Origin: a virus
Length of the DNA: 29,013 nt
Reading direction: 5' to 3' (one strand)
IMG/VR virus record: IMGVR_UViG_3300032224_000217
Location: 1 to 29,013 of that record
A model generated the notes under the pieces. It made no database searches. It was not told the origin of the DNA and was given only the letters and a program-made list of their open reading frames with translations. Made by a program: the position numbers and the translations under genes. Of the stretch, positions 124 through 29,013 are shown piece by piece; within the stretch, counting starts at the first letter, position 1, and every line of letters begins with the position of its first letter.

Positions 124-268
124 TGAAATGATAACGGTAGTGCAGGCATATATCCTGGAGAAAACAGGTAAGAAGGTGCGTATTGAATTTAATAATGTAA
201 GGAGATTCAGTGAGCACTTTGAGATGTTGAGAGCTGCCTACCATCATGTAATGAATGAAAGAAAATGA
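107..268 (+). CDS. Small hypothetical protein after terL (53 aa)
   Basis: This is an open frame of 53 codons from ATG 107 whose TGA overlaps the ATG of the next gene (ATGA at 265-268), which is the coupling style used throughout this genome. The product begins MTNDLNEMITVVQAYILEK and is a basic, mostly helical-looking protein with no signal peptide or membrane segment. I do not recognise a family. Its place between terL and the tail chaperone gene, and its tight overlap with the latter, suggest a role in tail or head assembly, but that is context only. It is complete at the left end of the window and truncated in the right-hand repeat. Confidence 0.6.
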   Translation: MTNDLNEMITVVQAYILEKTGKKVRIEFNNVRRFSEHFEMLRAAYHHVMNERK

Positions 269-1026
269 AACTAGATTTAACCGTACCTGAGAGCATAGCA
301 GAGATACCATTAGTGAACTATCAGAAATTCCTAAAGGTACAGCAGAATAGTAATGATGAGGAGTTCATAGCTCAAAAGATGATTGAGATATTCTGTGGCA
401 TTGAATTAAAGGATGTGGCTACCATTAAGATTAAGGATATGAATAATCTGGTAGAACACTTCAATAAGATATTCTCAGTTAAGCCTAAATTTTATCAGAC
501 GTTCAAATTAAAGGAGATGGAGTTCGGATTCATTCCTAACCTAGAGGAGATATCATGGGGTGAGTATATAGATTTAGAGCATCACCTCAATGACTGGGAA
601 GGATTCCACAAAGCAATGGCAGTTATGTACCGGCCCATTACAAAGAAACATAAGGATAAGTATGAGATAGCTCCATACACTGCAGGGGAGGAATTCCATG
701 AGCTCATGAAGTATATGCCTATGGAGATAGCTATTTCTGCAAGGGTTTTTTTTTATCATTTAGGGAACGAGTTATTAAACTCTACCCTGTCCTATTTGGA
801 GAGCCTGATGAACAAGAAGCCGAGCAGAAGGCAGAGGAGGACTTCTCAGAAAGGGGACAATTTGCTAAGCAATGGGGTTGGTATACTTCAATATATGCAG
901 TCGCTAAAGGAGATATCACAAAGTTTGATGAAGTTACCGGATACGGACTACATCAATGTCTCACCTATCTCACCTTCGAAAAGCAGAAAACAGAAATTGA
1001 ACAAAGAGAATTTAATAATAGAATGA
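265..1026 (+). CDS. Tail assembly chaperone-like protein, zero-frame product (253 aa)
   Basis: The first ~175 residues look like a conserved protein of Bacteroidota phages: an N-terminal helical region, a segment around SWGEYIDLEHHL, then MAVMYRPI and a hydrophobic FFYHLGNELL stretch. Its size, its place among tail genes and the frameshift signal make a lambda gpG-like tail assembly chaperone the best guess; such proteins bind the tape measure before tube polymerisation. At 746-754 there is a run of nine T. After it, the zero frame stays open to 1026 but its tail is rich in Lys, Ser and Arg and looks poorly folded, whereas the -1 frame gives a much more protein-like sequence to 1034. The functional long form is therefore probably made by frameshifting. 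ATG 265 is fixed by the ATGA overlap with the previous gene. The chaperone assignment is moderate; existence of the gene is near certain. Confidence 0.72.
   Translation: MKLDLTVPESIAEIPLVNYQKFLKVQQNSNDEEFIAQKMIEIFCGIELKDVATIKIKDMNNLVEHFNKIFSVKPKFYQTFKLKEMEFGFIPNLEEISWGEYIDLEHHLNDWEGFHKAMAVMYRPITKKHKDKYEIAPYTAGEEFHELMKYMPMEIAISARVFFYHLGNELLNSTLSYLESLMNKKPSRRQRRTSQKGDNLLSNGVGILQYMQSLKEISQSLMKLPDTDYINVSPISPSKSRKQKLNKENLIIE
747..753 (+). promoter_or_regulatory. Candidate -1 ribosomal slippery heptamer T TTT TTT
   Basis: In the frame of the gene starting at 265 the codons are GTT TTT TTT TAT, so bases 747-753 form T TTT TTT, a canonical X XXY YYZ heptamer for -1 slippage. Shifting here joins 163 zero-frame codons to 93 codons of the -1 frame, which ends at the TGA at 1032-1034 overlapping the next ATG. 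I did not identify a convincing downstream stem-loop by eye. An assembly error in the T9 run would give the same appearance. Confidence 0.6.
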
Positions 1027-1034
1027 AAAAATGA
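753..1034 (+). CDS. -1 frame extension of the tail assembly chaperone (gpGT-like C-terminal part)
   Basis: Read in the -1 frame, bases 753-1031 encode 93 residues, including an acidic DEQEAEQKAEEDF linker followed by QWGWYTSIYAVAKGDITKF, then LHQCLTYLTFEKQK. This compact, Trp-rich domain resembles the C-terminal part of homologous phage proteins as I remember them. Its stop codon overlaps the ATG of the next gene as ATGA at 1031-1034, matching the coupling used across the genome. Both points argue that this frame is the expressed one. It lacks its own convincing start, so it should be made as a fusion of about 256 aa after -1 slippage at 747-753. The zero-frame and frameshift products would be almost equal in length (253 and 256 aa), which is unusual for a G/GT pair. 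Confidence 0.65.
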   Translation, partial: LSFRERVIKLYPVLFGEPDEQEAEQKAEEDFSERGQFAKQWGWYTSIYAVAKGDITKFDEVTGYGLHQCLTYLTFEKQKTEIEQREFNNRMKK

Positions 1035-1486
1035 CCGGATACTACACACTAATAAAAGCACTAAAGGATCACTTTGATAATGATGTGCTAGTTAATACAG
1101 TTACTAATGGGGATATCTTTGATATAGATATAGCTAAGCAAACTATCTTCCCATTGGTACACACTATGGTAACACAAGCTCAATTCGAGAGTAACATCCA
1201 AAGATTCACACTGACATTATTCTGCATGGATATAGTGGATGCTGTAAAGGTGGAGGATGATACTAAATGGGAGACAAAGGATAACACTAATGATGCATTG
1301 AATTCTACACTGCAGATTCTAAATAGAGCCTATCAGATGCTACTGCATGGAACACTGCATGACCTTAACTTCCATGTAGACAATGTACCTACCTGTGAGC
1401 CATTCACTGAGAGATTTGAGAATAACCTAGTAGGATGGGCTATGACCTTAGATATCATTTGTCCTAATGACATGACTATCTGCTAG
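1031..1486 (+). CDS. Probable tail terminator / tail completion protein (151 aa)
   Basis: The product is 151 aa of mixed alpha/beta character with segments VTNGDIFDIDIAKQTIFPL and ERFENNLVGWAMTLDI. It resembles a conserved small tail protein of Bacteroidota phages; size and position before an HK97 gp10-like gene fit a tail terminator, which caps the tail tube and joins it to the neck. ATG 1031 overlaps the TGA of the -1 frame of the preceding gene, and its own TAG abuts the next ATG with no gap. No catalytic motif is seen. The family role is inferred from neighbourhood and size, not from a decisive motif. Confidence 0.6.
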   Translation: MTGYYTLIKALKDHFDNDVLVNTVTNGDIFDIDIAKQTIFPLVHTMVTQAQFESNIQRFTLTLFCMDIVDAVKVEDDTKWETKDNTNDALNSTLQILNRAYQMLLHGTLHDLNFHVDNVPTCEPFTERFENNLVGWAMTLDIICPNDMTIC

Positions 1487-5177: not shown

Positions 5178-5350
5178 TACATCACATAATACAGATGCTA
5201 AGCATCACAGAACACTATGGCCAGAGTGAGCTCATAGAAATTGCTAAGGGAAAGTATGCCATTGAAACTAAAGTAAAGAGGGTATACAAACAAGCCATGC
5301 GTGAGTTATATATGAAAGGACTAAGGAATGGCACAAACGGTAACAGTTAA
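5174..5350 (+). CDS. Small hypothetical protein before the tape measure gene (58 aa)
   Basis: ATG 5174 overlaps the stop of the preceding gene as ATGA, and the frame runs 58 codons to TAA 5350, overlapping the tape measure gene by 23 bases. The peptide is helical and basic at its C-terminal half (KVKRVYKQAMRELYMKGLRNG). I do not recognise it. The double overlap supports translation. The same DNA (5302-5311) holds the TGAGTTATAT word, so it may carry both coding and promoter information. Confidence 0.6.
   Translation: MIHHIIQMLSITEHYGQSELIEIAKGKYAIETKVKRVYKQAMRELYMKGLRNGTNGNS
5302..5311 (+). promoter_or_regulatory. TGAGTTATAT element upstream of the tape measure gene
   Basis: TGAGTTATAT lies inside the 58-aa gene, ending 16 bases before the tape measure ATG at 5328. 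The identical word precedes the scaffold gene (8792) and the portal operon (11118). Recurrence just ahead of three late genes suggests a late promoter or other late regulatory element; no constant second box was found at a fixed distance upstream. Confidence 0.45.
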
Positions 5351-7682
5351 TTTAGAGGTTAAGGATAACACTAAGAGCTTAAAGGCACAGCTAAAAGAGG
5401 CACAGGCTGAGGTAGCTGCATTGGCTGATAAGTATGGTGCTGCATCTGCACAGGCTACTCAGGCTGCGAGGAAAGCTGCTGAACTTAAAGATAGGATAGG
5501 TGATGCTAAGGCATTAACTGATGCATTTAATCCGGATGCTAAATTCAAGTCATTCACTGCTACATTGAGTGGAGTAGCAGGTGGATTCTCTGCAGTGCAG
5601 GGTGCTATGGGATTAGTAGGAGCTGAGGGTGAAGAGGTGCAGAAGATGATGCTAAAGGTGCAGAGTGCTATGGCTATCTCACAGGGATTGCAGGCATTAG
5701 GTGAGGCACAGGATTCATTCAAACAATTAACTTCTGTAGTAGGTGAATTCGTTACCAACCTATTCAAAAAGAATGCTGTAGAGGGAACTGGAGTAGCTAT
5801 TACTGAGGCTAGTGTAGTAGCAACTGAGGCAGAAATAATAGCAACGGAAGCAGAGGCTGTAGCTACTACTGAGGCCGCAGTAGCACAGGAGGGATTGAAT
5901 GCTGCTATGGCTATGAATCCCGTAGGTGCTCTAGTGTTAGCAATAACTGCATTAACTGCAGGATTAGTATATTACTTCTCATCTGCTGATAAGGCTACCA
6001 GTGCTAGTGAGAAAATGGCTAAGCAGAAAAAAGAAGCAGAAGAGGCATCAAAGAAACAGAGCCAGGCAATAGCTAAAGAATCTACTGAGTTCGTAGGATT
6101 GATATATCAATTAAAAGCTACCAATGCAGGTAGTAAAGAAAGAGCTGATTTAATCAAAAAGATAAATGGTACATATAATACTACCTTAAAGAATCTATCT
6201 GATGAGGCAGCATTCCAGCAACAACTAAATGCTGAGGTAGCTAGTTACATAGCATATCAAAAGGCTAAGTATGAACTAGCAAAAAATGAAGATAAGATCA
6301 CTACTAACCTGGAGAAACAGGATGAAATTAGAAAGAAACTAAATATCAGTCAAAAGGAACTAGATAGATTAAACGAAAAGAAAAAGAATCTACCTGCTGA
6401 TTATTTAGGGATAGGCCAATTAAACCAACAGATAGAAGATCAGACTAAAAAATTAAATACTTATCAGGAGCAGTTAGATGCAGCTAATGAGAGATTAGAA
6501 AACTATGGTAAGGTAGCACTGGATACTAATGGAGTCATAGCTGAGATAGAAGGTACTAATGGTAAATTCAATACTTCGTTAAAGAAAACTGGAGATACTG
6601 CAGGAGATACTGCAGGAGAGATTAAAGATTATGCAGTAGATCTAAATAACTACTTAGATGCTATTGAGGCAGATAGGCAGGGTAGATTATCTGATGCAAG
6701 AGCAAGAGAAGAGCAAGAGGTATCTAACCGGTATGAGAAATTATATGAACTAGCAGATAAGGCAGGAATAGATACTGCAGATTTGCAGAAAAAACAGGGT
6801 ATTGAATTAGGAGAGATTCGTAAAAAATATCAGAAGTTAGCAGATGATGAGAATCTTAAGCTAATGCAGGCGATGGATGATAAGGATACTCAAATGTTCC
6901 TTAAATCTGAGCAGATTAAAATAGATGCTATGAAGGATGGTATTGATAAGCAGGCCGCCATCCGCAAACTAGCATATGATAGGGGACAAATAGAACTGCA
7001 GAATCAGTTAGATGCTGAATTAATTACATATGAGGATTTTCAAACTGCATCTATAAATAATTTCAAAGCCTATCAGAATGCATTATCTGCAACTAATAAG
7101 GATGCTAATAAGGAAAGAAAGGAAGATGATCAGGCAGTATATGAGCAAAAGTTAGCACTGCAGAATAAGTATGCAGATATAGCTATACAAGCTGCCAATT
7201 TATTAAAGGATACACTGGGTAAAAGTAAGGCAGCTCAAAAAACTGCAGTTATTATAGAGAGTGCTGCAGGTATTGCTAAGATGATTATAGCTAATAAGCT
7301 AGCAAACATGGGAGCATTGGCTACTCCGCAGGCTATTGCTTCATCAGGGGTATCTGCTGCCCCTGTTATTGCAGCTAATAACATATCATTAGGATTAGGT
7401 ATAGCTGCCAACATAGCTGCAACTGTTAAGGCATTGAAAGAGATAGGAGGAGGAGGTAGTGTACCTAGTGGTGGAGGTACAGGTGGAGGTGGAATGGCTG
7501 CCGGTGGAGGAACAGGTACAGGTACAGGAGTAAATGCACCCAATTTCAACGTGGTAGGTAATAATGGTATTAATCAGTTAGCACAGTTACAACAGCAACC
7601 TGTTAAGGCATACGTGGTAGGCTCAGAAGTATCTACTCAACAGGCATTAGATAGAAATAGAATAACAAACGGAACACTATAA
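5328..7682 (+). CDS. Tail tape measure protein (784 aa)
   Basis: The 784-aa product has the build of a tape measure: an Ala/Lys/Glu-rich N-terminal coiled-coil region (about 1-60), a hydrophobic stretch near 192-217 (PVGALVLAITALTAGLVYYF), long charged coiled coils through roughly 225-400 and 470-650, and a Gly-rich low-complexity segment near 707-732 before a short C-terminal end. Tape measures set tail length and enter the cell with the DNA; at about 1.5 angstrom per residue this one would suit a tail of roughly 110-120 nm. There is no obvious peptidase or lytic transglycosylase domain. It overlaps the 58-aa gene upstream, and its TAA (7680-7682) shares one base with the next ATG. Confidence 0.88.
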   Translation: MAQTVTVNLEVKDNTKSLKAQLKEAQAEVAALADKYGAASAQATQAARKAAELKDRIGDAKALTDAFNPDAKFKSFTATLSGVAGGFSAVQGAMGLVGAEGEEVQKMMLKVQSAMAISQGLQALGEAQDSFKQLTSVVGEFVTNLFKKNAVEGTGVAITEASVVATEAEIIATEAEAVATTEAAVAQEGLNAAMAMNPVGALVLAITALTAGLVYYFSSADKATSASEKMAKQKKEAEEASKKQSQAIAKESTEFVGLIYQLKATNAGSKERADLIKKINGTYNTTLKNLSDEAAFQQQLNAEVASYIAYQKAKYELAKNEDKITTNLEKQDEIRKKLNISQKELDRLNEKKKNLPADYLGIGQLNQQIEDQTKKLNTYQEQLDAANERLENYGKVALDTNGVIAEIEGTNGKFNTSLKKTGDTAGDTAGEIKDYAVDLNNYLDAIEADRQGRLSDARAREEQEVSNRYEKLYELADKAGIDTADLQKKQGIELGEIRKKYQKLADDENLKLMQAMDDKDTQMFLKSEQIKIDAMKDGIDKQAAIRKLAYDRGQIELQNQLDAELITYEDFQTASINNFKAYQNALSATNKDANKERKEDDQAVYEQKLALQNKYADIAIQAANLLKDTLGKSKAAQKTAVIIESAAGIAKMIIANKLANMGALATPQAIASSGVSAAPVIAANNISLGLGIAANIAATVKALKEIGGGGSVPSGGGTGGGGMAAGGGTGTGTGVNAPNFNVVGNNGINQLAQLQQQPVKAYVVGSEVSTQQALDRNRITNGTL

Positions 7683-8593
7683 TGAAAATAATTGAATTAA
7701 TTTTAGATGAGAAGGATACCGAGATGGGAGTATATGCGGTATCTGTAGTAGATGAGCCTGCCATAGAAGAGAATTTCATAGCACTAAGCAAGCAAAGCAT
7801 AGAACTGGCTACCATTGATAAGGAAAAAAAGCTACTCATGGGGCCTGCATTGATACCTAATAAGCAGATTTATAGAAACAATGAGAAGCATGGGGAGTTC
7901 TATATCTACTTTAGTGAGGATACAGTACGCAAAGCCAGTGAGATGTTCTTTATCAATAGCAACCAGAGTGCTGCTACCTATGAGCATGATCATAAAATAG
8001 ATGGCATGACTGTGGTAGAATCATGGATAATAGATAATCCTGAGAAAGATAAGAGTGCAGCCTATGGATTCTCACTACCTAAAGGTACGTGGATGATTAG
8101 CATGAAGGTGAATAATCCGGATGTATGGAAAAAAGTTAAGGATGGAGATGTAAAGGGATTCTCTATTGAGGGATATTTCGCAGATAAGTATGAGATGAGC
8201 ATGGAGATGGCTATGCGTAAAGCTATGGATGAGGAGAAAGAATATCTCATAGAGCAGATTAAGAAGGTCCTCAAAGGTCAAGACCTGGAAGAGGTAAGCT
8301 ATAATGACTATCCATCCGTAGTGAGAAGGAATGCACAGAGAGGTATATTACTTAATGAGAGAAATGGCAATAAATGTGCTACTCAGGTGGGCAAAATTAG
8401 AGCTCAGCAGTTAGCCAATGGTGAGAAGGTGAGCATGGAAACCATTAAGAGAATGTACTCCTACCTATCCAGAGCTGAGGTATATTATAATCAGGGAGAT
8501 AGTAATGATTGCGGATATATATCATACCTATTATGGGGAGGGAAGGCAGCATTATCATGGGCAGAATCTAAAATAAAACAAGCAGAACAATGA
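7682..8593 (+). CDS. XkdF-like prohead protease with C-terminal extra domain (303 aa)
   Basis: Residues ~1-170 match the putative phage serine protease XkdF pattern: an N-terminal DTEMGVYAVSVVDEPAI, a TYEHDH motif with His102/His104, and DVKGFSIEGYF with Ser161, the likely nucleophile. After a charged linker (175-205), residues 207-300 form a second compact domain with YPSVVRRNAQRGI, NGNKCATQVGKIRAQQLANG and SYLLWGGKAALSWA. That second domain is one I associate with phage head proteins as a movable C-terminal module of unknown role. The gene lies just before scaffold and capsid genes, the usual place for a prohead maturation protease, which cuts scaffold and capsid during head assembly. Confidence 0.78.
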   Translation: MKIIELILDEKDTEMGVYAVSVVDEPAIEENFIALSKQSIELATIDKEKKLLMGPALIPNKQIYRNNEKHGEFYIYFSEDTVRKASEMFFINSNQSAATYEHDHKIDGMTVVESWIIDNPEKDKSAAYGFSLPKGTWMISMKVNNPDVWKKVKDGDVKGFSIEGYFADKYEMSMEMAMRKAMDEEKEYLIEQIKKVLKGQDLEEVSYNDYPSVVRRNAQRGILLNERNGNKCATQVGKIRAQQLANGEKVSMETIKRMYSYLSRAEVYYNQGDSNDCGYISYLLWGGKAALSWAESKIKQAEQ

Positions 8594-8811: not shown

Positions 8812-9426
8812 ATGAAAGAATCTATTTTATCACGTATCTCTGCACTTCTCGGGATGGAGAAGGTAGAACTAGCATCCATGAAGTTAATGGATGGAGTAAC
8901 TGTACTAGAGGCTGATGCATTTGAGCCGGGTATGGAAGTATTTATTGTTACTGAGGATGAGCAACGTATTGCTTTGCCGGTAGGTGAGTATGAGTTAGAG
9001 GATGGGAATATGTTAGAAGTAACTACTGAGGGAGTTATTGCTGAGATTAAAGCTCCAACTGCTGAAGAGGAAGCTCCAACTGCACCAGGTGAATCTACTG
9101 AGCCTACTACTGAGCCTATGGCACCAATGATGGAGGAGCAAATGGCTGAGGAAGGCACTCCTTCTCAACCAAAGAAAGTAATTAAATCTCAAATTGAAGA
9201 GATGTTATTCTCTAAAATTGAAGAATTAAAAGCAGAGAATGAGAGCTTGAAAGCACAACTATCTGAGCAGCCTGTAGTAGAAGAGGCTCCTGTAGTAGAG
9301 GCTGAGGCTGCTGCTAAACCTATCTCTCATAACCCTGAAAAACAAACTGCTGTACCACAGTTTACATTTGGTGCAAATAGAAAGGAGACTACTATGGATA
9401 GAATCCTAAATAAATTGGCTAACTAA
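8812..9426 (+). CDS. Probable capsid scaffold protein (204 aa)
   Basis: The product is very acidic. Residues ~1-85 form a small beta domain (FEPGMEVFIVTEDEQRIALP, then GEYELEDGNMLEV), residues ~85-125 are a Glu/Pro/Thr-rich linker, residues ~125-150 form a predicted coiled coil (MLFSKIEELKAENESLKAQL), and the basic C-terminal end (NRKETTMDRILNKLAN) could contact the capsid protein. It lies directly upstream of the major capsid gene and next to the protease. These are the features of a head scaffold, removed during maturation. The leader TATAAAAAAATATG is A-rich, as is usual for strong starts in Bacteroidota. No search was possible, so a capsid-decorating role is an alternative. Confidence 0.65.
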   Translation: MKESILSRISALLGMEKVELASMKLMDGVTVLEADAFEPGMEVFIVTEDEQRIALPVGEYELEDGNMLEVTTEGVIAEIKAPTAEEEAPTAPGESTEPTTEPMAPMMEEQMAEEGTPSQPKKVIKSQIEEMLFSKIEELKAENESLKAQLSEQPVVEEAPVVEAEAAAKPISHNPEKQTAVPQFTFGANRKETTMDRILNKLAN

Positions 9427-27353: not shown

Positions 27354-27710
27354 ATGAACAAAGAAGATAATTTAAGGCCTGCTTGGGGTAAAGGCGAAAG
27401 TGGAAACCCCGCAGGCAGACCAAAAGGAAGTAAGAACCGAAGTACAATCGCACGCCGTTGGTTGGAAGTAAATCAATCATTAAAGAATCCAATTACAGGC
27501 GAGAACGAAACAATGAGCCAAGAAGACTTAATGACTTTAGCGTTAATTAAAAAAGCGCGTGAAGGCGATGTAAACGCATACAAAGCGTTAATGGATAGCG
27601 GTTATGGTGCTCCCGTTCAACATGTGGAGCAGGAGACTAAGGTAGATATAAATAGTTTTAGAATTCAGGATGTGATAGAATTTAATGATACGCCTAAGCT
27701 CGAAGTATAA
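27354..27710 (+). CDS. DUF5681 protein, probable small terminase subunit (118 aa)
   Basis: The N-terminal WGKGESGNPAGRPKGSKNRS followed by TIARRWLEV is the DUF5681 signature, seen in small terminase-like DNA-binding proteins. The middle has MSQEDLMTLALIKKAREGDV and NAYKALMDSGYGAP, helical units as in TerS. It lies immediately upstream of terL and overlaps it by 26 bases, which favours a small terminase role that recognises the packaging site. Codons up to about 27615 (GCG, CGC/CGT, GGC, GAA) differ sharply from the GAG/AGA/AGG-rich neighbours, so that stretch looks acquired. A tiny frame MKAENDKDK (27306-27335) precedes it and is not called. Confidence 0.76.
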   Translation: MNKEDNLRPAWGKGESGNPAGRPKGSKNRSTIARRWLEVNQSLKNPITGENETMSQEDLMTLALIKKAREGDVNAYKALMDSGYGAPVQHVEQETKVDINSFRIQDVIEFNDTPKLEV

Positions 27711-28893
27711 TAGATTATTTGCATCAAACTGTAGATACAATGTAATCACAGGAGGGAGGGGTAGTTCTAAATCATTTAGTGTGGCAGCATGGGTGTGCCT
27801 GCTATCATTTGAGCATGGGCATAAGATTCTATTCACCCGGCAAACTATGACCTCAGCCCACATATCCATTATTCCTGAATTCAAAGAGAAGATAGAGCTC
27901 ATGGGATTAGAGGCCCATTTCGAGATCACAAAGAGTGAGATAGTTAATAAGACCTCAGGCAGTGAGATAATCTTTAGAGGTATCAAGACCTCATCAGGAG
28001 ACCAAACAGCTAACCTAAAATCACTACAGGGAATAACTACCTGGATAGTGGATGAGGCAGAAGAGCTCATAGAAGAGAATACCTTTGATAAGATTAACTT
28101 ATCCATTCGAAGCAGTAAGCAGGATAACAGGGTAGTGCTCATCCTGAATCCATCCACAAAGGAGCACTGGATATACAGGAGATTCTTTGAAGATAGAGGA
28201 GTGCAACCTGGAACGAATGGGGAGCATGGGGATACCTGCTATGTCCATACAACGTACCAGGATAACATAGAGAATCTTCCGCAGTCATTTCTAGATGAGG
28301 TGAATATCATGAGAGAGAGGAGGCCTGATAAGTATCAGCACTCTATTCTCGGTGGATGGTTAGATAAGGCAGAAGGAGTGATATTCTCTAACTGGTCTAT
28401 AGGTCTCTTCCAGAACATGGGCTCTGTTGTGTTCGGTCAGGATTACGGATTCTCTCAGGATCCTACTACCTTAGTAGAGACATCCATAGATAGAGGCAAT
28501 AAGAAGATATACCTGAGATTGCACCTGTATGAGAATGGATTAACTACCTCCATGATAGCTGATATCAATAAGAGCAAAGCAGGAGCTAACCTAATCATAG
28601 GTGATAGTGCTGAGCCACGTCTAATCACTGAGCTGAATGCTATGGGGTGCAACGTGGTGCCTGCAATTAAGGGACCGGATAGTGTGAGCTATGGTATCAG
28701 CCTGATGCAGGATTATGACCTGATTATAGATGAGGGTAGCATAGAGCTCATTAAAGAATTGAATAACTACTGCTGGCTATCTCAAAAGAGTAAGACTCCA
28801 ATAGATAAATGGAATCATGCACTGGATGCTATTAGATACGCTATTTCTTATCAGCTCGAAAATCCAAACAAAGGAAAATACTATATAATATAA
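27685..28893 (+). CDS. terL: Terminase large subunit (402 aa)
   Basis: The 402-aa product is a complete TerL of the Terminase_3 kind. The ATPase half has Walker A GGRGSSKS (23-30), Walker B IVDEAEE (121-127) and a coupling motif region LILNPST (152-158). The nuclease half has FGQDYGFSQDP (Asp253), IIGDSAEP (Asp307) and DKWNHALDAIRYA (Asp381), the three acidic positions of the RNase H-like headful or cos cleavage domain. It drives DNA into the procapsid through the portal and cuts the concatemer. It overlaps the small terminase gene by 26 bases and its stop codon is the first triplet of the terminal repeat. Confidence 0.93.
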   Translation: MIRLSSKYNRLFASNCRYNVITGGRGSSKSFSVAAWVCLLSFEHGHKILFTRQTMTSAHISIIPEFKEKIELMGLEAHFEITKSEIVNKTSGSEIIFRGIKTSSGDQTANLKSLQGITTWIVDEAEELIEENTFDKINLSIRSSKQDNRVVLILNPSTKEHWIYRRFFEDRGVQPGTNGEHGDTCYVHTTYQDNIENLPQSFLDEVNIMRERRPDKYQHSILGGWLDKAEGVIFSNWSIGLFQNMGSVVFGQDYGFSQDPTTLVETSIDRGNKKIYLRLHLYENGLTTSMIADINKSKAGANLIIGDSAEPRLITELNAMGCNVVPAIKGPDSVSYGISLMQDYDLIIDEGSIELIKELNNYCWLSQKSKTPIDKWNHALDAIRYAISYQLENPNKGKYYII

Positions 28894-29013
28894 TAGGGAA
28901 CTTAAAGTAATTGTTTAACTAACCGATGATAAAGCAGTGATATTCAAGGATATAGAAATGCATACTACAAATGTCGCAGAATTGAGTTATTAAGATATGA
29001 CTAATGATCTCAA
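28891..29013. repeat. Terminal direct repeat, right copy
   Basis: This is the exact second copy of bases 1-123. It contains the last codon (TAA) of terL, a short non-coding stretch, the TGAGTTATT element and the first 17 bases of the 53-aa gene. That small gene is therefore cut off at this end and complete only at the left end. Confidence 0.95.

Follow-up and report, generated by a model that had tools for sequence, protein, structure and literature searches.

A conserved run of at least nine T's where two maintained reading frames part in a putative tail-chaperone gene of Bacteroidota viruses

Gene layout around the recoded gene

The window analysed in this work is a whole stretch of 29,013 nucleotides, an IMG/VR virus record (IMGVR_UViG_3300032224_000217). 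It carries a direct terminal repeat of 123 bp (1-123 and 28891-29013), and the contig is complete or circular with an effective length of around 28.9 kb (about 28,890 bp). Because of this repeat, terL and the recoded gene that is the subject of this report adjoin across the contig junction (Table 1). The gap from the end of terL to the start of the recoded gene is 261 nt when counted across the junction. Among 301 relatives of the recoded gene, terL is found upstream and in the same orientation in 289. A first-pass annotation, made from the letters of the window, had placed the gene right after terL and about 4.3 kb away from the tape measure gene. Both placements hold, the first across the junction and the second for a candidate ORF 4.3 kb downstream. 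The downstream neighbours also include a weak neck or tail-completion match (phrog_5, E=0.014).

Table 1. Positions of the features of the recoded locus and its neighbours in the window
Feature	Positions	Strand	Evidence or remark
terL (Terminase_3)	27685..28893	+	Pfam E=3e-36; directly upstream across the circular junction
Small ORF, 53 aa	107..268	+	Between terL and the recoded gene; read from the sequence
Zero-frame product, 253 aa, G-like	265..1026	+	ORF; shared N-terminal domain plus a 90-aa tail after FF
Shared N-terminal domain, 161 codons, single-frame coding	265..747	+	Pairwise synonymous difference 0.36-0.56 throughout
Slip site T9, codons GTT TTT TTT TAT, heptamer T_TTT_TTT at 747-753	746..754	+	
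TAG stop in the third (+1) frame	761..763	+	Four codons past the run
-1 frame tail, 95 codons + TGA, FFLSFRERVIKLYP...QFAKQWGWYTSIYAVAKGDITKFDEVTGYGLHQCLTYLTFEKQKTEIEQ...	747..1034	+	Relatives in 335 IMG/VR stretches
Zero-frame stop TGA	1024..1026	+	
Next gene	1031..1486	+	ATG overlaps the -1 stop TGA (1032-1034) as ATGA, 1031-1034
Tape measure protein candidate	5328..7682	+	phrog_28, phrog_9959, phrog_339 (tail length tape measure), E 2e-6 to 2e-3

The T run is preceded by a G and followed by an A. The first-pass annotation had read a T_TTT_TTT heptamer in the frame of the ATG at 265, followed by about 270 nt in which the zero frame and the -1 frame are both open, with a -1 stop that overlaps the next ATG as ATGA. 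The codons, the ORFs and the overlap are all confirmed. The fusion joins residues 1-161 to the 95-aa -1 tail and has 256 aa. With the +1 frame closed by its early stop, only two of the three frames give a long product in the window. The run is the sole T run of nine in the 29 kb, and shuffled windows contain one in 3% of cases. When 25 genes of the window were scanned for an in-frame X_XXY_YYZ heptamer followed by a -1 frame open for at least 40 codons, the recoded gene was the only one found.

Two further observations concern the neighbourhood. The 53-aa ORF overlaps the start codon of the recoded gene as ATGA. Further downstream, PHROG 24921 (349 positions) is matched in its N-terminal part by the gene at 7682-8593 and in its C-terminal part by the gene at 8812-9426, and the end of the former matches phrog_2859; a head protease gene is apparently split here by another domain.

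Conservation of the run and of both frames

A search with the zero-frame protein found relatives in 397 IMG/VR stretches, and profile searches with the N-terminal domain found more than 500. The loci were gathered by protein similarity and not by the presence of a T run. The site is kept in 306 loci from IMG/VR and MAG contigs, which offer 249 distinct contexts and reach down to about 25% identity. In all 306 the run is T9, T10 or T12, and in none is it shorter than nine. The close loci number 155, counting the window and the Nonlabens phages P12024L and P12024S, and all of them share a run of exactly T9 and its phase, while the distant sets have T9, T10 or T12, with a single case of T12. A further scan gave agreement in run length for 78 of 78 readable loci.

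The -1 tail also matches three MAG contigs, whose labels are Bacteroidetes, Winogradskyella and Flavobacterium, which points to Bacteroidota as the hosts. The gene is present in hundreds of aquatic viruses of Bacteroidota. Among named phages, a protein search matched the gene only in Nonlabens P12024L/S, and the -1 tail used alone as a query matched none. Phages of Riemerella, Olleya and Bacteroides with a related terL were considered as relatives and rejected; in these the portal gene comes next, not the recoded gene.

Homopolymers are error-prone, and it is conceivable that a gene with truly one frame has been broken by an assembly or sequencing error, or that its run varies in phase at the DNA level. 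One locus, L185, has T9 where the near-identical L184 and L187 have T10. This explanation is, however, very improbable, since the same arrangement recurs in the 249 contexts and in two isolated phage genomes, and since constraint acts on the zero frame as far as the run and on the -1 frame past it. The relatives refute an artefact of this kind. The first-pass annotation had proposed a comparison of T tracts and -1 frame conservation among homologues, and had named homologues with one continuous frame as evidence against recoding. That comparison gave a run that is never below nine and a collapse of synonymous change at the run, and no relative has a continuous single frame. The missing T of L185 would break the scheme in that locus, and is either an assembly error or a rare indel. 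A practical warning follows, against 'correcting' the homopolymer runs of phage genes in assemblies.

The substitution pattern changes at the run. In the zero frame, pairwise synonymous differences of 0.36-0.56 along the N-terminal part, still 0.54 in the final full block ahead of the run, give way to zero at the run and then to values that are mostly 0.04-0.34, so that the overlap has about one third of the N-terminal level. Because the step down falls exactly at the run, we judge from these alignments that strong purifying selection acts on the -1 tail. The ATGA overlap with the next gene lies at the -1 stop in 212 of 292 loci and at the zero-frame stop in 8 of 299, and the next gene is coupled to the -1 frame rather than to the zero frame.

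The zero frame is also kept open. When the -1 protein was held fixed and its codons were resampled, the zero frame reached its observed open length in 0-0.2% of trials for each of the 45 dereplicated relatives, with a median open length that was mostly 0-21 nt. The reverse test gave 0-0.2% for the 12 relatives tested. We also examined wobble changes in the -1 frame at four-fold Ala, Gly, Pro and Thr sites that are unable to create zero-frame stops. In codons 1-24 past the run these changes amount to 0.00-0.03, against 0.22-0.68 in the N-terminal control; they are reduced in codons 25-60 and less reduced in codons 61-86. Zero-frame openness and the first 24 or so residues of this tail are thus clearly selected. 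Beyond that point, selection on the amino-acid sequence of the zero-frame tail is suggested, and the suggestion is weakened by a distant clade in which the zero-frame stop comes about 57 codons past the run. There the -1 wobble change past this stop is 0.22-0.35, as low as inside the overlap, with an N-terminal value of about 0.45; the -1 codons beside the stop are themselves constrained (0.11). In distant relatives such as L161, L176, L183, L204 and L226 the zero-frame stop falls at this conserved place, after a tail ending LKISLN, and the -1 codons at the stop are more constrained than their neighbours.

The two frames overlap by a median of 192 nt over 117 dereplicated relatives, by 170-270 nt in most and by about 275 nt in the window. 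Of 231 relatives, 198 have a +1 frame that closes four codons past the run, and 230 have one that closes within five. In the family the zero-frame tail varies from 27 to 101 aa and the -1 tail from 83 to 95 aa, so the near-equal size of the two products, which the first-pass annotation had singled out, is true of the window (253 and 256 aa) and is a feature of its clade rather than a general trait. The accompanying proposal that the C-terminus is swapped rather than simply extended agrees with the maintenance of both overlapping frames. For studies of overlapping genes, the locus offers a natural stretch of 170-270 nt read in two frames, with hundreds of relatives.

The slipping machinery

The recoded gene is genuine and belongs to the tail module of siphophage-like viruses of Bacteroidota. 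The site is real, both frames are maintained and the run length is strict. A ribosomal -1 shift needs T_TTT_TTN, that is at most seven T's, with no T required at the flanking positions (p-1 and p+7) and with C acceptable as the last base. What is new here is that every relative has a T9, T10 or T12 run and none has fewer than nine T's, though this heptamer needs no more than seven. The programmed -1 switch of the first-pass annotation is supported, with both frames maintained, but what is conserved is a run of at least nine T's, which exceeds the needs of ribosomal slippage and matches slippage by RNA polymerase.

The last base of the heptamer (p+6) is the third base of the second Phe codon, where a change from T to C is silent in both frames at T9 sites (Phe TTT/TTC; Leu TTR/CTR). 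All 119 dereplicated relatives have T here. On the same tree, third bases in conserved two-fold columns of this gene change at least 18-41 times, and 37% of Phe codons are TTC. Relative to the codons the run is found as NTT TTT TTT Tnn, TTT TTT TTT CTG, NTT TTT TTT TTn (TTG), TTT TTT TTT TAY and AGT TTT TTT TTT. Its class changes at least 11 times on a tree of the 119 dereplicated proteins, and the flanking T's compensate: where an upstream T is lost there are extra downstream T's, and vice versa.

Could ribosomal -1 frameshifting on U_UUU_UUU alone, as in lambda G/GT or P2 E/E', account for the site, with the extra T's supplied by conserved Val, Ile, Leu, Trp and Tyr codons? A perfect T_TTT_TTT heptamer is in the right phase in all close relatives and in the distant sets, and tail chaperones as a rule use -1 frameshifting (PMC5009743; lambda and P2 records). 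Against this stand the run that is never below nine in 249 contexts, the invariant p+6 at a position where C would be tolerated, and the shifts in phase that compensate each other. A stimulatory stem-loop or pseudoknot, or an upstream Shine-Dalgarno-like site, is common though not obligatory at ribosomal sites, and the folding and synonymous tests gave no sign of a stem-loop or of an upstream site. Folding z-scores are near zero for 60 relatives in all eleven windows from -140 to +200, in a search that covered structures other than pseudoknots, which rules against RNA structure as a stimulator. The synonymous tests found no constrained upstream element, as there is no drop in synonymous change before the run. 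Lambda-type frameshifts also work without known stimulators. We regard ribosomal frameshifting alone as possible but rather unlikely.

Long runs are scarcer elsewhere in these loci than expected. Over 507 kb of dereplicated whole loci, A runs of at least nine were seen 5 times against 48 expected, a depletion of about tenfold, and T runs of at least nine 8 times against 20 expected, a 2.5-fold depletion; the expected numbers come from dinucleotide shuffles and not from codon-preserving ones. The A runs fall sharply in number from length 8 to length 9, while the T runs are depleted below nine too. This pattern is as expected if host polymerases slip on such runs, but it can also reflect replication slippage.

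According to reviews, nine A's or T's form an efficient slip site for RNA polymerase, which is used in Thermus dnaX (PMC5009743, PMC1088944). Transcriptome-wide data show an exponential increase of insertions with the length of an A/T run, most of them of a single base (PMC5574713). The polarity of a single-base insertion matches the -1 direction at the T9 site.

The switch that we consider best supported, and probable, is RNA polymerase slippage that adds one U. We prefer it because the run is always at least nine, its phase compensates and p+6 is invariant; because there is neither a folding signal nor an upstream element, and long A/T runs are depleted elsewhere; and because polymerases are known to slip on nine A's or T's, where one inserted U leads into the -1 frame. 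From these data we infer slippage by the polymerase, a chaperone function and a ratio between the products. One start codon would then yield two proteins that share the N-terminal domain of 161 residues and carry alternative tails from overlapping frames. The host RNA polymerase would slip on the run of at least nine T's, so that a fraction of the mRNAs gains one U (U10). On these the ribosome would enter the -1 frame and make the fusion, while the unslipped mRNA would give the zero-frame protein, and any other slippage product would end no more than about four codons on. The ribosome may add to the fusion by -1 slippage on the U_UUU_UUU within the run. By analogy with lambda G/GT, both proteins would most likely be tail assembly chaperones, with the -1 tail as the conserved T-like part.

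Several points count against polymerase slippage. The T9 run contains a perfect ribosomal heptamer, and conserved V/I/L and W/Y codons also account for several of the flanking T's. Slippage may come more easily on UUU than on UUC, which would likewise favour T at p+6. The depletion of A/T runs can come from replication slippage, and that of T runs extends below nine. It is also conceivable that both machines act, with the polymerase giving most of the fusion, the ribosome adding to it and T9 serving both. The sequence meets both sets of requirements at once, but none of the data require a ribosomal part, and we hold such a combination to be improbable.

Frameshifting in tail chaperones is textbook ribosomal recoding. 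We see roughly even chances for the wider proposal, in which slippage of the host RNA polymerase on T9-T10, and not a shift by the ribosome, sets the ratio between two tail-chaperone isoforms in a large group of Bacteroidota phages, and in which these phages have overprinted a second, alternative C-terminal tail on the conserved -1 frame. If a phage group of this size does use polymerase slippage in this way, then the product ratio would be what is conserved and not the mechanism, as for dnaX in E. coli and Thermus.

Protein identity and comparison with known systems

The AF2 model has a confident alpha/beta N-terminal domain (pLDDT of about 85-90 up to around residue 165) and a long helix at 153-183 that spans the slip point. 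The -1 tail is modelled as all-helical with low confidence (pLDDT 65). No match was found in the PDB, either by sequence or by fold. Among the predicted viral structures of BFVD there are 34 matches at E <= 0.001, including Nonlabens P12024S and gp10 of Flavobacterium phage 6H (E=7e-4), and a weak match to an annotated chaperone (E=0.41). The Pfam and PHROG profiles of known chaperone families gave no match above threshold; below it, Phage_TAC_7 was hit by 1 of 35 relatives (E=0.098) and phrog_166, a 'tail protein', by 2 of 35 (E=9e-4).

The tail chaperone named in the first-pass annotation fits the location in a tail module, while firm sequence or PDB fold matches to chaperone families did not appear. 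The gene most likely is a tail chaperone, judging by its two-product logic and the nearby tail genes rather than by homology. It would work like G/GT, and is a candidate rather than an established member of a known chaperone family. One could instead suppose that the recoding is real and that the gene encodes some other morphogenesis or packaging protein beside terL, whichever machine slips. The missing PDB and profile matches favour this, as does the position, which adjoins terL instead of preceding the tape measure gene. However, a common N-terminal part with two alternative tails is characteristic of tail chaperones, and the structural matches to 6H gp10 and, weakly, to an annotated chaperone point the same way, together with the neck or tail-completion match and the tape measure candidate downstream. 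We therefore think a function other than that of a chaperone unlikely.

The locus can be compared with several known systems. Like lambda G/GT and other siphophage chaperones, it appears from its sequence to have one start, a common N-terminal domain, a second product in the -1 frame and a place in the tail module. It differs in its slip site, a homopolymer of at least nine T's, and in its place after terL, whereas genes of the lambda G/GT type lie between the major tail protein and the tape measure gene. In lambda the zero frame stops 22 nt past the slip site, and here at a median of about 190 nt; in annotated sets the average is 26-36 nt (PMC10885494). The P2 tail proteins gpE and gpE+E' also comprise a short form and a long form made by a -1 frameshift, with a stop only 20 nt past the annotated shift, unlike the long overlap seen here.

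Programmed transcriptional realignment, as in Thermus thermophilus dnaX, Shigella mxiE and spa13 and IS elements, similarly involves a long coding A/T run and two products. Its marks are an unbroken A/T run, about 8-9 or longer, that is conserved together with the overlapping frames at the point where they part, and the avoidance of long runs elsewhere in the same genomes. Both are seen here, with runs of 9-12 in 249 contexts. In Thermus dnaX a run of nine is followed by nearby stops in the other frames (PMC5009743, PMC1088944) and slippage gives a truncated product, whereas here both frames have long maintained tails. Potyvirus P3N-PIPO resembles the present proposal in that polymerase slippage on a homopolymer reaches an overlapping conserved frame. 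There it takes place in an RNA virus, on GAAAAAA and at about 2% (PMC5009743), and the proteins are unrelated to those described here. In the openly readable literature that we searched, we found no description of polymerase slippage for phage tail chaperones.

Phage 6H gp10, a fold relative of the N-terminal domain, offered no clear additional slip site. The protein ends CFFYSTR at a T6 run, and the -1 frame stops almost at once after it. A long overlapping -1 ORF begins just past the -1 stop near the end of gp10 (L317, 10352-10927, minus strand). This could be a tail-chaperone gene recoded at a different slip site, or the effect of a sequence error.

The isolated Nonlabens phages P12024L and P12024S have about 23% identity to the window in the N-terminal part of the protein. 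Their homologue sits after terL and has T9, and it matches the window without a difference over 25 nt counted from the first T of the run. The zero-frame tail has just 27 aa. As a cultured phage, P12024L makes the mechanism directly testable. Both genome annotations give the end of the -1 tail a short gene of its own, P12024L_41 (L002 3522-3689) and P12024S_39 (L003 3528-3695), which is most likely the unrecognised 3' part of a fusion with the preceding gene.
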